A stretch of DNA of 64,000 nt from assembly GCF_025628895.1 (NCBI RefSeq), contig NZ_JAOTJC010000006.1, positions 607,960 through 671,959 of the forward strand, written 5' to 3'. The translations under genes and the position numbers were made by a program. Below are positions 49,171 through 58,027 of the stretch, one piece after another (positions within the stretch are counted from its first letter, which is position 1; each line of letters starts with the position of its first letter). The DNA comes from Alteromonas salexigens. GTDB taxonomy: Bacteria > Pseudomonadota > Gammaproteobacteria > Enterobacterales > Alteromonadaceae. The notes under the pieces are model-generated. The model did no database searches, was not told the DNA's origin, and saw only the letters and a program-made list of their open reading frames with translations.

Positions 49171-50125
49171 CGCACGACCTAAAGCCGGGGTAAAGCTCCG
49201 CGACGATGAAAAAGTTAAACACATCCCTGTCACTATAGTACCGACAGAGAAAGAGGAAATGCTGCGCAAGCCTGAGTGGATTAAAATCAAGCTGCCACGC
49301 ACAACCGATCGCATCGATCACATAAAGAAAACGTTACGCAAAAACAATTTGCATTCGGTATGCGAAGAAGCAAGTTGTCCGAACCTGGCTGAATGTTTTA
49401 ATCACGGTACTGCCACGTTTATGATCCTTGGTGATATCTGCACCCGGCGTTGTCCTTTCTGCGACGTGGCCCACGGTAAGCCGTTACCGCCAAGTGCTGA
49501 AGAACCTTTAAAGCTGGCTACCACCATTGCAGAGATGAAGCTGAACTATGTGGTAATAACGTCGGTGGACCGGGACGACCTGCGGGATGGCGGAGCTCAG
49601 CATTTCGTCGATTGTATCAATGCCATTCGCGAACACAGCCCGGAGACCACCATTGAAGTGCTGGTACCGGACTTCCGCGGACGTATGGACCGTGCTCTGG
49701 AGATATTTCAGCAGGGTTTACCCGATGTCTTCAATCATAACCTTGAAACCATCCCCCGTCTTTATCGCGAATGCCGGCCCGGTGCCAACTACCAATGGTC
49801 GCTGGACTTGCTGAAAAAGTTCAAGGAACAGCATCCGGAAATTCGTACCAAATCCGGCCTGATGATGGGCATGGGTGAAAACAGTGAAGAAATCCAGGGC
49901 GTTTTACGGGACCTGCGTGAGCATGGTGTCGACATGCTGACACTGGGTCAGTATTTACAACCAAGCCGCCATCACTTCCCGGTGAAAAAGTACGTTCATC
50001 CGGACGAGTTCGATGCACTGGGTGAGTACGCGAAATCCATTGGTTTCTCACATGCTGCCTGTGGACCTATGGTACGTTCAAGTTACCACGCCGACCAGCA
50101 AGCCGCCGGCAAAGAAGTTAAATAA
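49163..50125 (+). CDS. lipA: Lipoyl synthase
   Basis: Radical-SAM enzyme that inserts two sulfurs into the octanoyl chain. The 320-residue product carries the auxiliary cluster motif [12 protein letters not shown] and the radical-SAM motif CTRRCPFCD (C-x3-C-x2-C), then [13 protein letters not shown] and [12 protein letters not shown]. It ends with the conserved serine region [13 protein letters not shown]. Coupled to lipB and followed by a strong terminator. Confidence 0.98.
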
Positions 50126-50142
50126 CCACCTCACCTATAAAG

Positions 50143-50170
50143 AAAAAATCCCGCTTTCGCGGGATTTTTT
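50143..50170. terminator. Shared terminator of lipA and the GGEEF gene
   Basis: AAAAAATCCCGC-TTTC-GCGGGATTTTTT is a perfect stem with A and T runs, between the convergent lipA and diguanylate cyclase stop codons. Confidence 0.9.
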
Positions 50171-50185
50171 GTATCTGCTGGCAGC

Positions 50186-51925
50186 CTAAATAGGCTTCAG
50201 CGTGCTGTCATATTCGTACACCCGGTTGCGGCCATATTGCTTTGACTGATACAAGGCCAGGTCGCTTGCTGAAGACAGGTTTTCGAAGTTAAAGCCGACC
50301 TGCCGGGTATCTGCCACGCCGAAACTGGCTGTGAGGGTAAACTGATGCCCGCTGGGGGTGGAGTCAATGGCTTCGATAGCCTCCCGGCATTCTTCCGCCA
50401 CTGCCAGCCCTTGTTGGGCGTCCGCATCGGTAATCAGAATTGCAAACTCCTCACCGCCCATGCGGCCAAGCATACAGTTCTCGTCGCAAACGGCCTGCAT
50501 GGCCCGCACCACTTCCCGTAATACCCAGTCTCCTATCTGATGGCCGTAGGTATCGTTAATTTGTTTAAAGTGGTCAAGATCCAATAGCGCAACACTGAGC
50601 ACGCCATTCTGCTGTTGGGTTTTCTTTAAGAGTCGCTCAGCCCGTTCCGCAAAATAACCGCGATTGTAAATTTGGGTAAGGGAGTCGGTGCGGGCAAGAT
50701 GCCGCAGCTTTTGTTGCACTTTACGGCTACGGTAAGACCACATCAGCAGCCCGAATAACATCACAGAGGAGAGGATAAGTGCAAGATACAACTTCTCTGC
50801 CCGTGCTGCAGCCAGTTTGTTTTTCTGATCCATCAGGGCTATCTGGCTCTCTTTGCGACTAAGATCAAACTTAGCCCGTTGCATCGCCAGTGAGCGGGCA
50901 ACCTCGGCCGTATGGTAATCGTCCCGGGTGGCAATTTTCATCTCCAGATAGGCCACCGCATCCTGGTAGTTGCCTTCCGCTTTCTCTACTTTGGCCAGCA
51001 CATCCAACGCTTTTAAAATTGGTGGCCGGTATTCTTGCTCCCGATCACTTTCCAATACTTCCAGTGCCAGCTGACGGGCTTGCTGATAATCCCCTTTAAG
51101 CAACGCCAGCCGCGCTCTGGCTGCCTGTTGGGTGGTATCCATGTGAATAAAATCCATGTCTTTGAGGATCGCAGCAATTTGTTTATCGACCTCTTCAGCC
51201 ATGTAAATATCTTCTATCATCACCAGGTAGCGATAATAAAACGAGCCCGCGTAAGCGACATAAAAATACTGTTCAGCCTCCTGACACAGTGCTATAGCAT
51301 CTTCAAAAACTTGCTGAGATAAGTCCCGGGAATTCGCCCGATAACTTGATTCCGCTTTGTGTGCCATGGCGATACAGCGCTCAGCGTCATTGGCCTCCTC
51401 AGACTCTAAAATTTTATCAATGTAGAAGCGCGCCATGGCATGCTGGTCTATTTCCACATGAAAAACGGTAAGCCCCCGGTAAACATCAATTTTTGAACGG
51501 GGATCCACCTCTGGGATCATGGCTTCCAATTTCTCGGCGAGAGCAAAGCTTTGCGACCATTCTGAGCTGTACACAGACAGCCCGATTAACGAAACCAGCA
51601 GACGAACTTCTATATGGTGCCCACGGGCATCTTCTAACAGGGCGTGGTAACCGGCGAGGGTTTCAGCAAGGTCACCATCGTAGGTGGAAAAGTACACTTG
51701 CAGATAGCGGTAGTGAATTTTTTCGTCGGCGGATAACGCACTTACATCTATGTCATCAAGCATCACTCTCGCACTAACCGGGTCCGATACCCGTAATGCT
51801 TCTATGGCAACTAGATCATCATGGCTTGCGGCCTGTACACCACCAGCCAGGCAGACAGTCAACAGGCATACCAGACCAAAAAAAGAAGCGAGTTTACGCA
51901 ACCTTGTCTTTCTCTGGCGTATCAT
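50186..51925 (-). CDS. Diguanylate cyclase with periplasmic TPR-like sensor
   Basis: A 579-residue protein: signal peptide (FFGLVCLLTVCLAGGVQA), about 320 residues of TPR-like helical repeats in the periplasm (for example DAVAYLEMKIATRDDYHTAE), a membrane helix near 372-392 and a cytoplasmic GGDEF domain with an intact GGEEF near 489 in LGRMGGEEFAIL. LLDLDHFKQINDTYGH also supports catalysis. It should make c-di-GMP in response to a periplasmic ligand. I start at the ATG at 51925, which lies inside the end of the small upstream gene and has no strong site of its own, so coupled translation is likely; open frame extends to 51997. Confidence 0.85.
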   Translation of the reverse strand: MIRQRKTRLRKLASFFGLVCLLTVCLAGGVQAASHDDLVAIEALRVSDPVSARVMLDDIDVSALSADEKIHYRYLQVYFSTYDGDLAETLAGYHALLEDARGHHIEVRLLVSLIGLSVYSSEWSQSFALAEKLEAMIPEVDPRSKIDVYRGLTVFHVEIDQHAMARFYIDKILESEEANDAERCIAMAHKAESSYRANSRDLSQQVFEDAIALCQEAEQYFYVAYAGSFYYRYLVMIEDIYMAEEVDKQIAAILKDMDFIHMDTTQQAARARLALLKGDYQQARQLALEVLESDREQEYRPPILKALDVLAKVEKAEGNYQDAVAYLEMKIATRDDYHTAEVARSLAMQRAKFDLSRKESQIALMDQKNKLAAARAEKLYLALILSSVMLFGLLMWSYRSRKVQQKLRHLARTDSLTQIYNRGYFAERAERLLKKTQQQNGVLSVALLDLDHFKQINDTYGHQIGDWVLREVVRAMQAVCDENCMLGRMGGEEFAILITDADAQQGLAVAEECREAIEAIDSTPSGHQFTLTASFGVADTRQVGFNFENLSSASDLALYQSKQYGRNRVYEYDSTLKPI

Positions 51926-52103
51926 CAGGTTCAGGCGTTGGTTGAGTGGGTTCGTGCGGTTCAGACACTGACAACATTGCATGCAAAGGCGCGACACTGC
52001 TTTTCAAGCCATTGACTGCCCGCTTTTGTTGTTCAGTTAAGGTAATATCATCGGCGACGGCGCCCTGCTCTGCCAGTTTAACCAGTAAATTTACGGTACT
52101 CAT
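51894..52103 (-). CDS. Small protein next to borosin-like methyltransferase, candidate peptide substrate
   Basis: A 69-residue protein that I do not recognise. AAGGAGAGAGCA just before the ATG is a strong ribosome binding site, so it is probably well expressed. Residues 3-35 look helical (VNLLVKLAEQG, LTEQQKRAVNGLK). A short hydrophobic stretch APLHAMLSV (38-46) follows, then a tail rich in Pro, Glu, Thr and Asp (residues 47-69). It lies 58 bp after the SonM-like methyltransferase gene, the position of the precursor in split borosin operons. It lacks the SonA-type binding-domain signature I know, so the precursor role is inference. It overlaps the cyclase gene by 32 bp. Confidence 0.7.
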   Translation of the reverse strand: MSTVNLLVKLAEQGAVADDITLTEQQKRAVNGLKSSVAPLHAMLSVSEPHEPTQPTPEPDDTPEKDKVA

Positions 52104-52131
52104 TGCTCTCTCCTTAGTAGCCAGGCATAGG

Positions 52132-52180
52132 TTCTGCCCGAAGTGCCCTCGCGGGCTGCCGCTACACTATTTCGGTAGCG
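52132..52180 (-). promoter_or_regulatory. Two tandem stem-loops between methyltransferase and small gene
   Basis: CGCTAC...GTAGCG (52160-52180) spans the methyltransferase stop codon, and GCCCG...CGGGC (52136-52156) follows immediately on the minus strand. Neither has a T-run. Such a pair between an enzyme gene and a highly translated small gene could set their relative levels by RNA processing or partial termination (inference). Confidence 0.45.
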
Positions 52181-52956
52181 TTTAATTGTTTTATTTTCTG
52201 TACTGTTTCTTCGTCTGGCTGCATGGTTTCTGACGGCGGAACTACCAGTGTAGTCACTGGCGTGAGGTCAGCCGTGGGTAGTTCGGATAATGGAAGCCAT
52301 TCAATTCGCACACGATCGGTGATCAACGTGGGGCACTCATAAAGCGCCACCTGATGCTCAGCCGGATAATGCCGCTCGAGCAGCGATACCAGAATGCGTC
52401 GTTCATCCGCACTGCTTAACCGTTTGGCGATACTGATATCGCCGGCAAGGGCAATTTGCCATAAAATCAGATATGCAGAGGGATCCAACTGGCGCCGGTA
52501 AAACATTACCTGACTGGCTTCATAATGCTGACAACCGTAATAACCGGGATCAATGCCCATATCGGCATACAAACAGTCTTCAGCTGAAATTCCTGGCTCC
52601 ATGCGCGCGTCAAAACCTTCCGCGCGTGCGGTTGCAATAGCCTGATGAGGAACGCGGGCAAATACACCAGGGTGGCCGTAGAAAGCCGCGACGACGCGCT
52701 TGCCAGCACGCACTTCAGCCAGCATTTCAGCTAGCATCTCCCGGTAAGTAATGCGGCGATCTTTATGTTCGGCGTAAAACCGTTGTAATGAACGTACATC
52801 CGGGTGCATGTCGCTTATCCACTGCTCCATTAGGGGGTGGCAGTTGGAAAACACCACATCGGCGCCTTCAATTAACGATTTACAGCGTGTACTCATGTGC
52901 GCGCCCAGCGTCATTCCGGGCCCTACACATACCAGACTTCCCTGTTTCTTTTGCAT
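52162..52956 (-). CDS. Tetrapyrrole-methylase-fold protein resembling borosin N-methyltransferase SonM
   Basis: A 264-residue SAM-dependent methyltransferase of the tetrapyrrole methylase fold. The start GSLVCVGPGMTLGAHMS, ADVVFSN, AFYGHPGVFARVPHQAI, EPGISAEDCLYADMGIDPG and GCQHYEASQVMFYRR track closely, from memory, the Shewanella SonM sequence, which methylates backbone amides of a separate peptide (split borosin). FYA at 60-62 and RRITYREM at 67-74 hold Tyr/Arg residues like those lining the borosin active site. It lacks the cobalamin/siroheme-pathway context of true tetrapyrrole enzymes. The start is the ATG at 52956 or the GTG at 52962. First gene of a three-gene operon with the small protein and the cyclase. 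Confidence 0.85.
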   Translation of the reverse strand: MQKKQGSLVCVGPGMTLGAHMSTRCKSLIEGADVVFSNCHPLMEQWISDMHPDVRSLQRFYAEHKDRRITYREMLAEMLAEVRAGKRVVAAFYGHPGVFARVPHQAIATARAEGFDARMEPGISAEDCLYADMGIDPGYYGCQHYEASQVMFYRRQLDPSAYLILWQIALAGDISIAKRLSSADERRILVSLLERHYPAEHQVALYECPTLITDRVRIEWLPLSELPTADLTPVTTLVVPPSETMQPDEETVQKIKQLNATEIV

Positions 52957-53157
52957 TACCACTGCAGGTCACACTTATTATTTTTTCTTAGTATGCCAAA
53001 AAATTTCAGGCAGGTAACCTTAATTCTGGCAGGGTTACTATGAAAATCCGGCACTTACATGGCAAATAGCAGTATTGCCAGAGATGTCCAGGTTGATTTC
53101 ACAGCATGCCAGGCTTCACTTTACTGACCGCTCCTGCAAACCTGAAAAGACAGCCGG

Positions 53158-54492
53158 TTAGTCCCTGGATGAAATAAGGTGTAAGCGAGTTTGCCGGCCA
53201 TCAAGATAAGATACCTTGTCGCCATCAAAAAACGCTTGTTCCTCAAGCATGATCCGCACGGGTTGGTCCCAGGACGCCAGGTCTACTTTGGCATTAAGCT
53301 CGATGGCATACAGGGTGTTGGGCCGCATCGTATATTCACCGCTGCCTGCTACGCCCTGCTGGGCATCCCACATACCAATAGTGGTTCCCGCACCATGACC
53401 ATGCAAACCTATAGGATGGCTGTAAATAGTGGGTGTGATGCCCTGCGCTATGGCCGTCTGCCTGGCGTGCGCGAGAATATCATTACCGCGGCGCCCTGCC
53501 CGAAATGCATCAGTAAGAATATCCTGTAACTTATTGCCTGTCGCCAACGCCTTAGTTAACGCAAGGGGCGCTGATTGCTCGTTGTCTTTTAGCACGTAGG
53601 CATGTTGCTGCTGGTCTGAATGTAATCCCAGGTAACGTACCCCAAAGTCTACATGTAACAAATCCCCGCGGCGGATTATTTGCGCTGCATCTTTATGACT
53701 AAAATCTTTACCAGCACCGGTGGCTTGTCGTTGCAATGATACGCTGGGGTGAAACCAGTTATCCAGATGCCTTTTCTGGGTTTCTTCACGTAGCCACCAT
53801 TCAACGTCTTCGGTGGAGGTGACGCCTGGCGTAATAACGGCATCTGAAAACGCAGTGGCAATCATATCGTGTCCTATGCGGGTTAACTGCTTATAATAAG
53901 GCAGCTCCTGAGGTAGCCGGGTTTCCAGCCAACCGACGGTCAGTTTTTCAGCACTTACCAGGCGGTTCTGATAACCTTCCGGCAATGCCTCTCGCAAGGC
54001 GGCCAGTTCGGTGGCGGCGATACCGTCGGCCAAACCAAAGTGATCAGACTGATTAATTCCGATACGCGCCGGCTGTCGGGCGCGGATTAGCGCTGCGAGC
54101 GCCTGATACTGATCAGGGGTGTTGCGGGTGTCCCAGGCAGGCTGGAACAGGGTACCCACTTTATAACGGGCCACCGCATAGAATTCCAGCGGCTGTCCTT
54201 CGGGCGGCGCGTAAATTACCAGGATTGTTCTGCGCCGGGCTGACATCCAGGTGGCGGGCAACATGGTTTCCAGCACGGGATCTTCATTATACTCCCGTGC
54301 TATCAGTACCCACATATCGATATGTTCCCGGGCCATTAGATCAGGTAAAACCTGCGCTGCTCTGGCCCGCGTAAATGCGTCGATAACCTTCGCACGCTCC
54401 CGCAGGGGCAATAGCTCATCTCCATCAGCCGGCTGCGCCCCCACTGCACTCGCCCACCACACCAGCATAACCAGACTTAATAATATCTTCAT
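53158..54492 (-). CDS. Exported M24 (Xaa-Pro aminopeptidase-like) metallopeptidase
   Basis: A 444-residue pita-bread-fold peptidase with a signal peptide (MKILLSLVMLVWWASAVGAQ). The C-terminal catalytic domain keeps the five metal ligands of family M24: Asp in LLHVDFGVRYLG, Asp in GLHSDQQQHAYV, His in YSHPIGLHGHGAG, Glu in LYAIELNAKV and Glu in MLEEQAFFDG. The N-terminal creatinase-like domain includes DMWVLIAREYNEDP. It likely trims proline-containing peptides in the periplasm. I start at the ATG at 54492 after GGGGGATT. It is divergent from ansA, with about 130 bp between the starts. Confidence 0.88.
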   Translation of the reverse strand: MKILLSLVMLVWWASAVGAQPADGDELLPLRERAKVIDAFTRARAAQVLPDLMAREHIDMWVLIAREYNEDPVLETMLPATWMSARRRTILVIYAPPEGQPLEFYAVARYKVGTLFQPAWDTRNTPDQYQALAALIRARQPARIGINQSDHFGLADGIAATELAALREALPEGYQNRLVSAEKLTVGWLETRLPQELPYYKQLTRIGHDMIATAFSDAVITPGVTSTEDVEWWLREETQKRHLDNWFHPSVSLQRQATGAGKDFSHKDAAQIIRRGDLLHVDFGVRYLGLHSDQQQHAYVLKDNEQSAPLALTKALATGNKLQDILTDAFRAGRRGNDILAHARQTAIAQGITPTIYSHPIGLHGHGAGTTIGMWDAQQGVAGSGEYTMRPNTLYAIELNAKVDLASWDQPVRIMLEEQAFFDGDKVSYLDGRQTRLHLISSRD

Positions 54493-54619
54493 CGGTAATC
54501 CCCCCAGCAATTTTCACATTGTCGTCACGCTACCGGTCTAAATACAAGTCATTTAGCGCCAACAGATGACATCAGAAGTCGGCCTGATACAATAACGCGA
54601 AAAAGCAAAGGCTCTCCCC

Positions 54620-56554: not shown

Positions 56555-58027
56555 GTGACTGCAGCACTACAACCTCAAAATCGTGTTTCTTTAGGATGTC
56601 AGCTTTGGCGCTCCCCTGCCCGGCGTGGCGGAATGATATGTCTGTTGTGGTTGGCGGTGTGGCAAGTGGGGCTGCTCGGTGAATTACATACTCACGCCAG
56701 TGTGTGGTTCCCCGCTGCAGGCTTAAGCTTTGCTGCGTTACTGGTTGCCGGGCGAAGCGCATTGCTCCCCCTGTCAATAGCCGCGGTGCTGATTACCTTT
56801 TGGGCAGCGGCCTTTTATGATATCCCGCTTTCTCTGAGTGAACAGCTAATAGCCGGTTTGGCCTTCGCCACAGCCCATTTGGCCCCCTACTCTGCCGGTG
56901 CCTGGATTGTGCGTCGTGTATCGCAATACGCTCCCGGGCAATTGCCTATCCTCATACTGTCATTCGTGTTAAGCGCATTAACCACCACACTGTTGGCTAC
57001 CGGCTTGGGAATGCTAGCCCTCACCAGCACCGGCATGATGACGCCGGACGAGATTGCGGGTACCTGGTTTACGTACTGGATTGGTGACTTAGCCGGTGTC
57101 GTGGTCATTACGCCGTTTTTCCTGCCAATATTGAGAACGCTCTATCCCGGCTCGTCCTTCTCTCTAAAGGCCTACTTGTACGCCAATGCTCACGGTCACA
57201 AAGGGGGGATCCTGTATGCCAAGGCCCTATTGAATATAGCAATTGTGATAGTCAGTATGCTGTTGGCTGCGACCTTAAACACGATGGAAAGCGCATTTGC
57301 GATCTTCTTTCTTGCGGTCAGCCACATGTGGATGGCTTGCACTGAAAGTCCACTCGCCAATGTAATCAGTCTGGCGTTTTCCAGCTTTCTGATTGCGTTT
57401 CTGGTTGCCCTGTGGTCATTGACAGACTATGTCATGGTGTATCAGTTTGCGATCATTGTCATTGCCAGTAACGTTTTATTCGCCCTCGCCTTGCCCAAAC
57501 TGGTGGCTGATAATACCGAACTTGAGCGGCGTGTTGGTACCGATACGCTTACCTCGGCGGCGTCACGTGATGCTTTATTCGAACATGCCAGCCACGTCTT
57601 TACTCGCGCCGAAGCTGCCCATCGCCCGGTTTCTGTGATCATTTTTGATGTGGACAGGTTTAAACAGATTAATGACCAGCACGGCCATCAGGCTGGCGAC
57701 AAAGCATTGCAATGCGTCTGTGAAGCGGCCAGAGAAGTACTGCGCCCTGCTGATATTTTGGCCCGGTTCGGCGGCGACGAGTTTGTGGTGTTATTACCAG
57801 ACACAGCGCCGTCAGTGGCAGGCCAGATAGGCCAGCGACTGCACGCCCATATCAATGCGCTTACTGTATTGCCGTGTGAGATGACAATCAGTGCTGGCAT
57901 TGCCAGCAGCCGTCCGGGAGACACCTTTGAGGACGTATTCGAACGAGCGGATAACGCGTTGTACCGCGCCAAACATAATGGCCGCAACCAAACCCAGGGT
58001 GCGGCCACCAATAATGTGAAGGGTTAG
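56555..58027 (+). CDS. MASE1-GGDEF diguanylate cyclase
   Basis: A 490-residue membrane cyclase. An N-terminal MASE1 sensor with about eight membrane helices (residues 25-315) includes ASVWFPAAGLSFAALLVAG and TYWIGDLAGVVVITPF. A C-terminal GGDEF domain (about 325-480) has an intact FGGDEF near 406 and VIIFDVDRFKQINDQHGHQ. It should make c-di-GMP on a signal sensed in the membrane. The start is a GTG at 56555 with only a weak GGATAAC before it. It is a third active or partly active c-di-GMP gene in this window. Confidence 0.92.
   Translation: MTAALQPQNRVSLGCQLWRSPARRGGMICLLWLAVWQVGLLGELHTHASVWFPAAGLSFAALLVAGRSALLPLSIAAVLITFWAAAFYDIPLSLSEQLIAGLAFATAHLAPYSAGAWIVRRVSQYAPGQLPILILSFVLSALTTTLLATGLGMLALTSTGMMTPDEIAGTWFTYWIGDLAGVVVITPFFLPILRTLYPGSSFSLKAYLYANAHGHKGGILYAKALLNIAIVIVSMLLAATLNTMESAFAIFFLAVSHMWMACTESPLANVISLAFSSFLIAFLVALWSLTDYVMVYQFAIIVIASNVLFALALPKLVADNTELERRVGTDTLTSAASRDALFEHASHVFTRAEAAHRPVSVIIFDVDRFKQINDQHGHQAGDKALQCVCEAAREVLRPADILARFGGDEFVVLLPDTAPSVAGQIGQRLHAHINALTVLPCEMTISAGIASSRPGDTFEDVFERADNALYRAKHNGRNQTQGAATNNVKG

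Follow-up and report, generated by a model that had tools for sequence, protein, structure and literature searches.

The window analysed here is a 64,000-nucleotide stretch of Alteromonas salexigens (contig NZ_JAOTJC010000006.1, positions 607,960 to 671,959), on the minus strand of which a cassette of three consecutive genes was identified. In order, these encode a SonM-like peptide-backbone alpha-N-methyltransferase (MT; 52162-52956 from an ATG start, or 52162-52962 if a GTG start is used), a 69-residue putative precursor peptide (51894-52103) with a shortened leader of the SonA family, a core and a Pro/Asp/Glu tail, and a protein with tetratricopeptide repeats (TPR), a transmembrane (TM) helix and a GGDEF domain (50186-51925 from its ATG, in a frame that is open from a GTG at 51997). 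The ATG of this last gene (51925) lies within the end of the open reading frame (ORF) for the 69-residue peptide, the two overlapping by 32 bases on the same strand. An initial annotation of this DNA had proposed the first two genes as a split-borosin pair. The coordinates that it gave for both ORFs were confirmed, and all four motifs listed for the MT (GSLVCVG, YGHPGVF, EPGISAEDCLYAD and GCQHYEASQ) are present in its translation, while the strong ribosome binding site noted for the small gene was identified as TAAGGAGAGAGCA ahead of the ATG at 52103 on the minus strand. The pairing of MT and precursor stood, but the third gene, which proved to be the informative part of the locus, had been overlooked.

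Comparison of the MT with Pfam gave a match to TP_methylase (E 1.3e-18), a family shared with tetrapyrrole methylases, and the pair could on this basis be read as an ordinary enzyme of that kind beside an unrelated small gene, an explanation we regard as hardly credible. The best match in the PDB was SonM (E 4.6e-74), followed by fungal borosin N-methyltransferases of the OphMA type (E 1e-42 to 6e-39, about 1e-40), with corrin and siroheme methylases at E 0.0047 or worse; an ordinary tetrapyrrole role was rejected, SonM and OphMA being far ahead of the corrin enzymes. The SonM match spans residues 8-249 of the 266-residue ORF product, which is separately encoded with neither a fused clasp nor a fused core, and the enzyme is 48.6% identical to a SonM orthologue. 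Residues Y58, R67, Y71 and Y93 of SonM were mutated by Miller et al. 2021 (PMC8429565), and in the alignment these correspond to Y63, R69, Y73 and Y95 of the window MT ORF product. The four active-site residues were all found in the window enzyme, as in every one of the 104 aligned MTs. Furthermore, the two other TP_methylase matches of the genome lie on other contigs, so that no neighbouring tetrapyrrole pathway explains the MT. The PDB ranking and the active-site residues support the backbone N-methyltransferase that the initial annotation had suggested, and the sequence search places it with SonM and OphMA and not with the corrin methylases, the MT tree described below having been built without corrin enzymes.

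At E 0.001, relatives of the MT were identified in 129 of the 295 family genomes, ten of which gave weak matches only (best E above 1e-7) that are probably ordinary tetrapyrrole methylases. At E 1e-20, relatives were found in 71 of 295 genomes of the order sample and in 4 of 274 genomes of the class sample (own genome counted), indicating that the family is concentrated in this order, with members outside it including Luteimonas and a Thermomonas metagenome-assembled genome (MAG).

The 69-residue product had no match in the PDB up to E 10 or in NCBIfam up to E 1, gave only a sub-threshold match to DUF5775 in Pfam (E 0.19) and had no confirmed relatives in viral contigs. Homologues at E < 1e-6 were present in only three genomes of the same genus, each directly adjoining the MT. 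Across 107 MT loci (the window, 6 related loci and 100 fetched loci), precursors were identified by reading the gap between the MT and the sensor gene. A precursor-like ORF was found beside the MT in 92 of these, loci L054 and L168 among them, and none was found in 15. Most of these precursors possess an N-terminal helix of the LLEKLG type and a hydrophobic core, with a Pro/Asp/Glu tail in cyclase cassettes, a tail that was itself partly a search criterion. As homologues adjoin the MT in three genomes and precursor-like ORFs occur at 92 of 107 loci, the small gene is not there by chance, and its conservation is a further point against the tetrapyrrole explanation. The earlier suggestion that it encodes the MT substrate is supported, and the 69-residue product is very probably that substrate.

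A second suggestion, that the small protein represents a new precursor class unrelated to SonA, did not hold. Profile comparison linked the 11 short precursors (window included) to 67 long cassette precursors with a probability of 96.9%, and the long precursors to three SonA orthologues with 95.9-97.1%, while the SonA orthologues were linked to 14 precursors of kinase-associated loci (described below) with 97.9-98.4%. None of 60 column shuffles attained any of the three profile values that were re-tested, and reversed profiles gave at most 7.5%. Direct comparison of the short precursors with SonA was not significant (2.6%), and the link between these two consequently rests on the intermediates. 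On this chain of profiles from short to long to SonA, the window precursor is by sequence a shortened relative of SonA and no separate invention. The 11 short-precursor rows clustered in the MT tree (support 89/91 in the full tree; 99/93 for nine short-precursor rows together with the window; 99/97 when set against only the SonA-type and kinase-linked groups), so that the short form appears to be a single derived lineage. Type IV split borosins are marked by a leader that forms a borosin-binding domain of five helices; a single-sequence model of the 69-mer predicted two helices at low confidence (predicted local distance difference test 67).

The predicted core lies near the C-terminus, where the hydrophobic stretch LSVSEP occupies residues 44-49 (L44-S45-V46-S47-E48-P49; 51957-51974, minus strand). 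Of the 11 short precursors, 8 have the pattern [LMV]x[IV]xxP, where shuffled tails would give 0.48; it also occurs in two of the three SonA orthologues, and just 3 of the 67 long precursors had it, which is chance level. The methylated residues of SonA are L63 and I65 (PMC8429565), and L44 and V46 of the window core show the same i, i+2 spacing (L-x-I); by analogy, these two residues are predicted to be the sites of N-methylation. Cysteine is present in 65 of 67 long precursors, commonly in an IVC-x-x-x-PAE context, versus 0 of 11 short ones, and the SonA types also lack it. Locus L102 was found to carry three closely similar tandem precursors with a fourth further down, and L081, L083 and L085 two different precursors each.

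The third gene of the cassette is predicted to encode an N-terminal signal segment, a periplasmic TPR part of ~365 residues, one TM helix and a cyclase domain with a GGEEF motif. An N-terminal hydrophobic segment and a TM helix were predicted in 59 of 76 cyclases of the compared loci. Two cysteines of the sensor part (C184 and C214 numbered from the ATG, C208 and C238 from the GTG; the stretch between them spanning 51284-51376, minus strand) were kept in all 76 first and all 30 other cluster cyclases of the 107 loci and also in three orphan sensors, versus none of the other TPR-GGDEF proteins compared (7 rows, about four distinct proteins); the kinase sensors described below lack them as well. 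Among the TPR proteins that the predicted sensor fold resembles are the Rap-Phr peptide receptors. Of 39 GGDEF matches in the window genome, only one possesses this sensor.

Taken together, the enzyme family, the precursor family, the gene linkage, the predicted topology and the invariant sensor cysteines suggest a compact split-borosin peptide-and-receptor signalling cassette with cyclic di-GMP (c-di-GMP) output, to which we assign a probability of roughly 0.55. Methylation, cleavage, export, binding and c-di-GMP output are steps that we infer. The MT, acting as a dimer like SonM, would methylate amides of the peptide backbone within the hydrophobic precursor core, probably first at L44 and then at V46 in an N to C order, after docking on the shortened leader. 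The core or a fragment of it would be released and reach the periplasm or the outside, with N-methylation making the peptide less prone to proteolysis and easing its passage across membranes. The neighbouring membrane protein would bind the peptide with its periplasmic TPR superhelix, and the signal would run through a coiled coil and the TM helix to the GGEEF domain, altering c-di-GMP. Somewhat short of even odds is the wider proposal that the split borosins of this order are signals, the N-methylated peptide being the ligand of a periplasmic TPR receptor of the same cassette whose output part is either a diguanylate cyclase or a hybrid histidine kinase. Such cassettes would be the Gram-negative equivalent of Rap-Phr, acting on c-di-GMP, and N-methylation would make the pheromone membrane-permeable and stable.

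Clustering identified a homologue of the window TPR-GGDEF protein at 89 of the 107 loci, and at 14 a TPR-TM-hybrid histidine kinase was found in place of the cyclase (three of these kinases were checked in Pfam). The four loci with no clustered sensor were L054, where a cyclase is present by blastp, L055, whose 3.2-kb contig gives a partial match by tblastn, L057, a 5.3-kb contig that stops 0.5 kb beyond the MT, and L168. One branch of the MT tree (support 99/91) has all 14 kinase-linked MTs on the same side. When a profile of the cyclase sensor domain was run over 118 family genomes (E 1e-20), 60 matches were obtained, 50 of them within 6 kb of an MT and 49 on the same strand. Every one of the 43 MT matches of at least 45% identity was accompanied by a sensor match, and the 15 of 61 MT matches without one all have 37-44% identity, as the kinase-linked MTs do. 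Three sensor matches, those of genomes G051, G086 and G114, lie in frames of 1068-1080 residues (kinase size), each beside an MT; that of G114 falls in the kinase cluster (L139), while those of G051 and G086 are likened to kinases by size only. At locus L178 the MT matches SonM end to end (E 1.5e-167) and the precursor matches the SonA PDB chain (E 2.4e-38), with a TPR-GGDEF gene directly after. Judging from the gene order of this close relative, the founding split borosin SonM-SonA very probably has a TPR-GGDEF neighbour too. At 13 of the 107 loci (L064, L070, L078, L080, L087, L098, L100, L103, L114, L118, L167, L172 and L176), at least two TPR-GGDEF genes of the cassette type follow downstream on the same strand.

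Such linkage might also arise if the MT-precursor pair made a borosin with another target, the TPR-GGDEF protein regulating its production or sensing an effect on the envelope and not binding the peptide. Clusters for ribosomally synthesized and post-translationally modified peptides often carry regulators and TPR proteins are common in these genomes, but the sensor type is near-constant (103 of 107 loci) though the output domain varies, and we consider this explanation rather unlikely. It is also at odds with a direct fusion found in the Thermomonas MAG (L059:2302-4803), where TPR, GGDEF and borosin MT are encoded by one 833-residue ORF. The same fusion, in which the MT follows the cytoplasmic GGDEF domain, is in favour of a different arrangement, whereby precursor and leader would stay in the cell and the MT-precursor complex would partner the cyclase or kinase from within the cytoplasm, methylation serving as a switch and no product being secreted. 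The window cassette, which has neither a signal peptide nor a transporter, would suit this arrangement; the sensor part shared by these proteins, however, is predicted to be periplasmic, which puts it in a different compartment from a cytoplasmic precursor. The arrangement is further opposed by the 24 of 107 loci that have a pepsin-like aspartic protease (Pfam Asp) encoded upstream of the MT in the same orientation, as its presence suggests cleavage, and we judge a purely cytoplasmic complex to be quite improbable.

This protease is a candidate leader peptidase. Of 13 pepsin-like proteases among the 118 genomes, 12 are encoded no further than 4 kb from an MT; the remaining one (G040), interrupted by in-frame stops, is on a different contig. 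At 56 of the 107 loci a GNAT gene with the orientation of the MT was found within 700 bp of it, and L111 has a 471-residue ORF in which the borosin MT is fused to a GNAT-like domain (33-37% to cluster GNATs by blastp). The protease loci include L067, L069, L073, L074, L078, L082, L165, L166 and L167, mostly with the GNAT in between. Neither GNAT nor pepsin-like protease was found in the 11 short-precursor loci or in the 14 kinase loci, and the window genome gave no match to the protease at E 1e-15. As the short-precursor loci have neither gene, the window cassette is taken as a minimal form.

Co-variation was examined across 70 cassettes. Precursor distance correlated with TPR distance when MT and GGDEF were removed (partial r 0.38, p 0.001) and with MT distance when the others were removed (partial r 0.28, p 0.001), whereas no correlation with GGDEF distance was seen (partial r 0.00, p 0.47). 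Correlation of the precursor with the TPR part and not with GGDEF argues against a sensor that does not bind the peptide. Restricting GGDEF and MT to their fast columns (66 cassettes) gave a smaller effect, with values of 0.27 for leader and TPR, 0.14 for core and TPR and 0.03-0.07 for GGDEF. The core was not favoured over the leader in this split, and the closer tracking of TPR divergence by the leader is a point for a complex that stays in the cytoplasm. Partial Mantel tests are often too lenient on related sequences, and co-variation is for this reason treated as supportive only.

Several observations weigh against the proposed peptide-receptor signalling. Sensors with no MT nearby made up 10 of the 60 matches in the 118 genomes, and the sensor is present in three of eight genus members lacking this MT clade, which would be expected if the borosin had another target. 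At L193 (G149), which lacks MT and precursor, an orphan TPR-GGDEF gene occupies the asparaginase/lipoyl-synthase slot that holds the cassette in the window. Orphan sensors could be eavesdroppers, relics or a sign of another ligand. The core motif is missing in three members of the short group (L066, L076 and L109), nothing in the window cassette accounts for export or cleavage, and the specificity control for the TPR part was rough, with 1 of 22 ORFs from other TPR loci scoring like the kinases.

Directly upstream of the cassette lies an M24-family peptidase gene with a signal-like N-terminus (53158-54510, minus strand), beyond which is an asparaginase gene on the opposite strand. The peptidase was considered as a maturation protease and rejected; tblastn gave no match in any of 86 other loci, and it is accordingly treated as a chance neighbour. 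A second cyclase, MASE1-GGDEF, with another sensor type was identified at 56555-58027 (plus strand), ~4.6 kb from that of the cassette. A riboswitch search gave three Rfam matches up to E 1 at 50110-50200, all under gathering scores, and promoter and terminator scans gave chance level only.

Split borosins have been described before and occur widely (PMC8429565; PMC11285071). The window resembles the type IV system SonM-SonA of Shewanella oneidensis (PMC8429565) in having a separate MT (~263 residues) with a small precursor next door, in the four active-site residues and in a hydrophobic C-terminal core with L-x-I spacing. It differs in that 19 fewer residues precede the core (L44 versus L63), making the leader shorter than the borosin-binding domain (BBD) of SonA (residues 1-53; PMC8429565), and in the Pro/Asp/Glu tail after the core, which the three SonA orthologues lack. 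Types V-X (PMC11395268) likewise have a split MT and precursor. A figure legend of that article gives the GGDEF domain as an element of borosin architecture and one class with no identified BBD. Likeness of the cluster proteases to pepsins of the shewasin type (PMC4814920), the in vivo function of which is left open there, is by Pfam Asp family only; unlike the 24 related loci, the window genome and the 11 short-precursor loci have no match to such a protease. Text look-ups found neither TPR nor peptide signals in PMC8846402, a single reference only on borosin or aspartic proteases in PMC10885120, and no SonM in PMC12141560.

The TPR superhelix of the window protein is similar in length to those of Rap-Phr, NprR-NprX and AimR (RRNPP family). 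In RRNPP systems a small peptide gene lies beside the receptor gene and the output is on the receptor, and the window cassette is alike. RRNPP receptors are, however, cytosolic, with a helix-turn-helix or Rap-type effector part, whereas the window protein has an N-terminal hydrophobic segment, a predicted periplasmic TPR part and a TM helix leading to GGDEF (or, in relatives, to a histidine kinase). Unlike RRNPP peptides, the window precursor has no evident secretion signal, and its leader is related to that of an N-methyltransferase substrate. The title of Crone et al. 2023 reportedly announces a bacterial borosin product, and no statement on the biological role of such a product was met in the literature searched, which covered the core borosin papers in part. 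Within the same coverage, the cassette, the receptor role and the swap of cyclase and kinase were not described beyond the GGDEF legend of PMC11395268, split borosins themselves and the GGDEF element of their architecture having been published already. Owing to this partial coverage, no claim of a first report is made.

The linkage described here offers a testable role for these peptides, namely signalling into c-di-GMP or a phosphorelay, and it names both a receptor domain and predicted methylation sites. Natural controls are available in the orphan receptors, the paralogous cassettes and the relatives with a swapped output. The linkage of MT and protease also suggests a possible function for shewasin-type bacterial pepsins. 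If true, the proposed signalling would give a purpose to a widespread and unexplained family of bacterial peptides.

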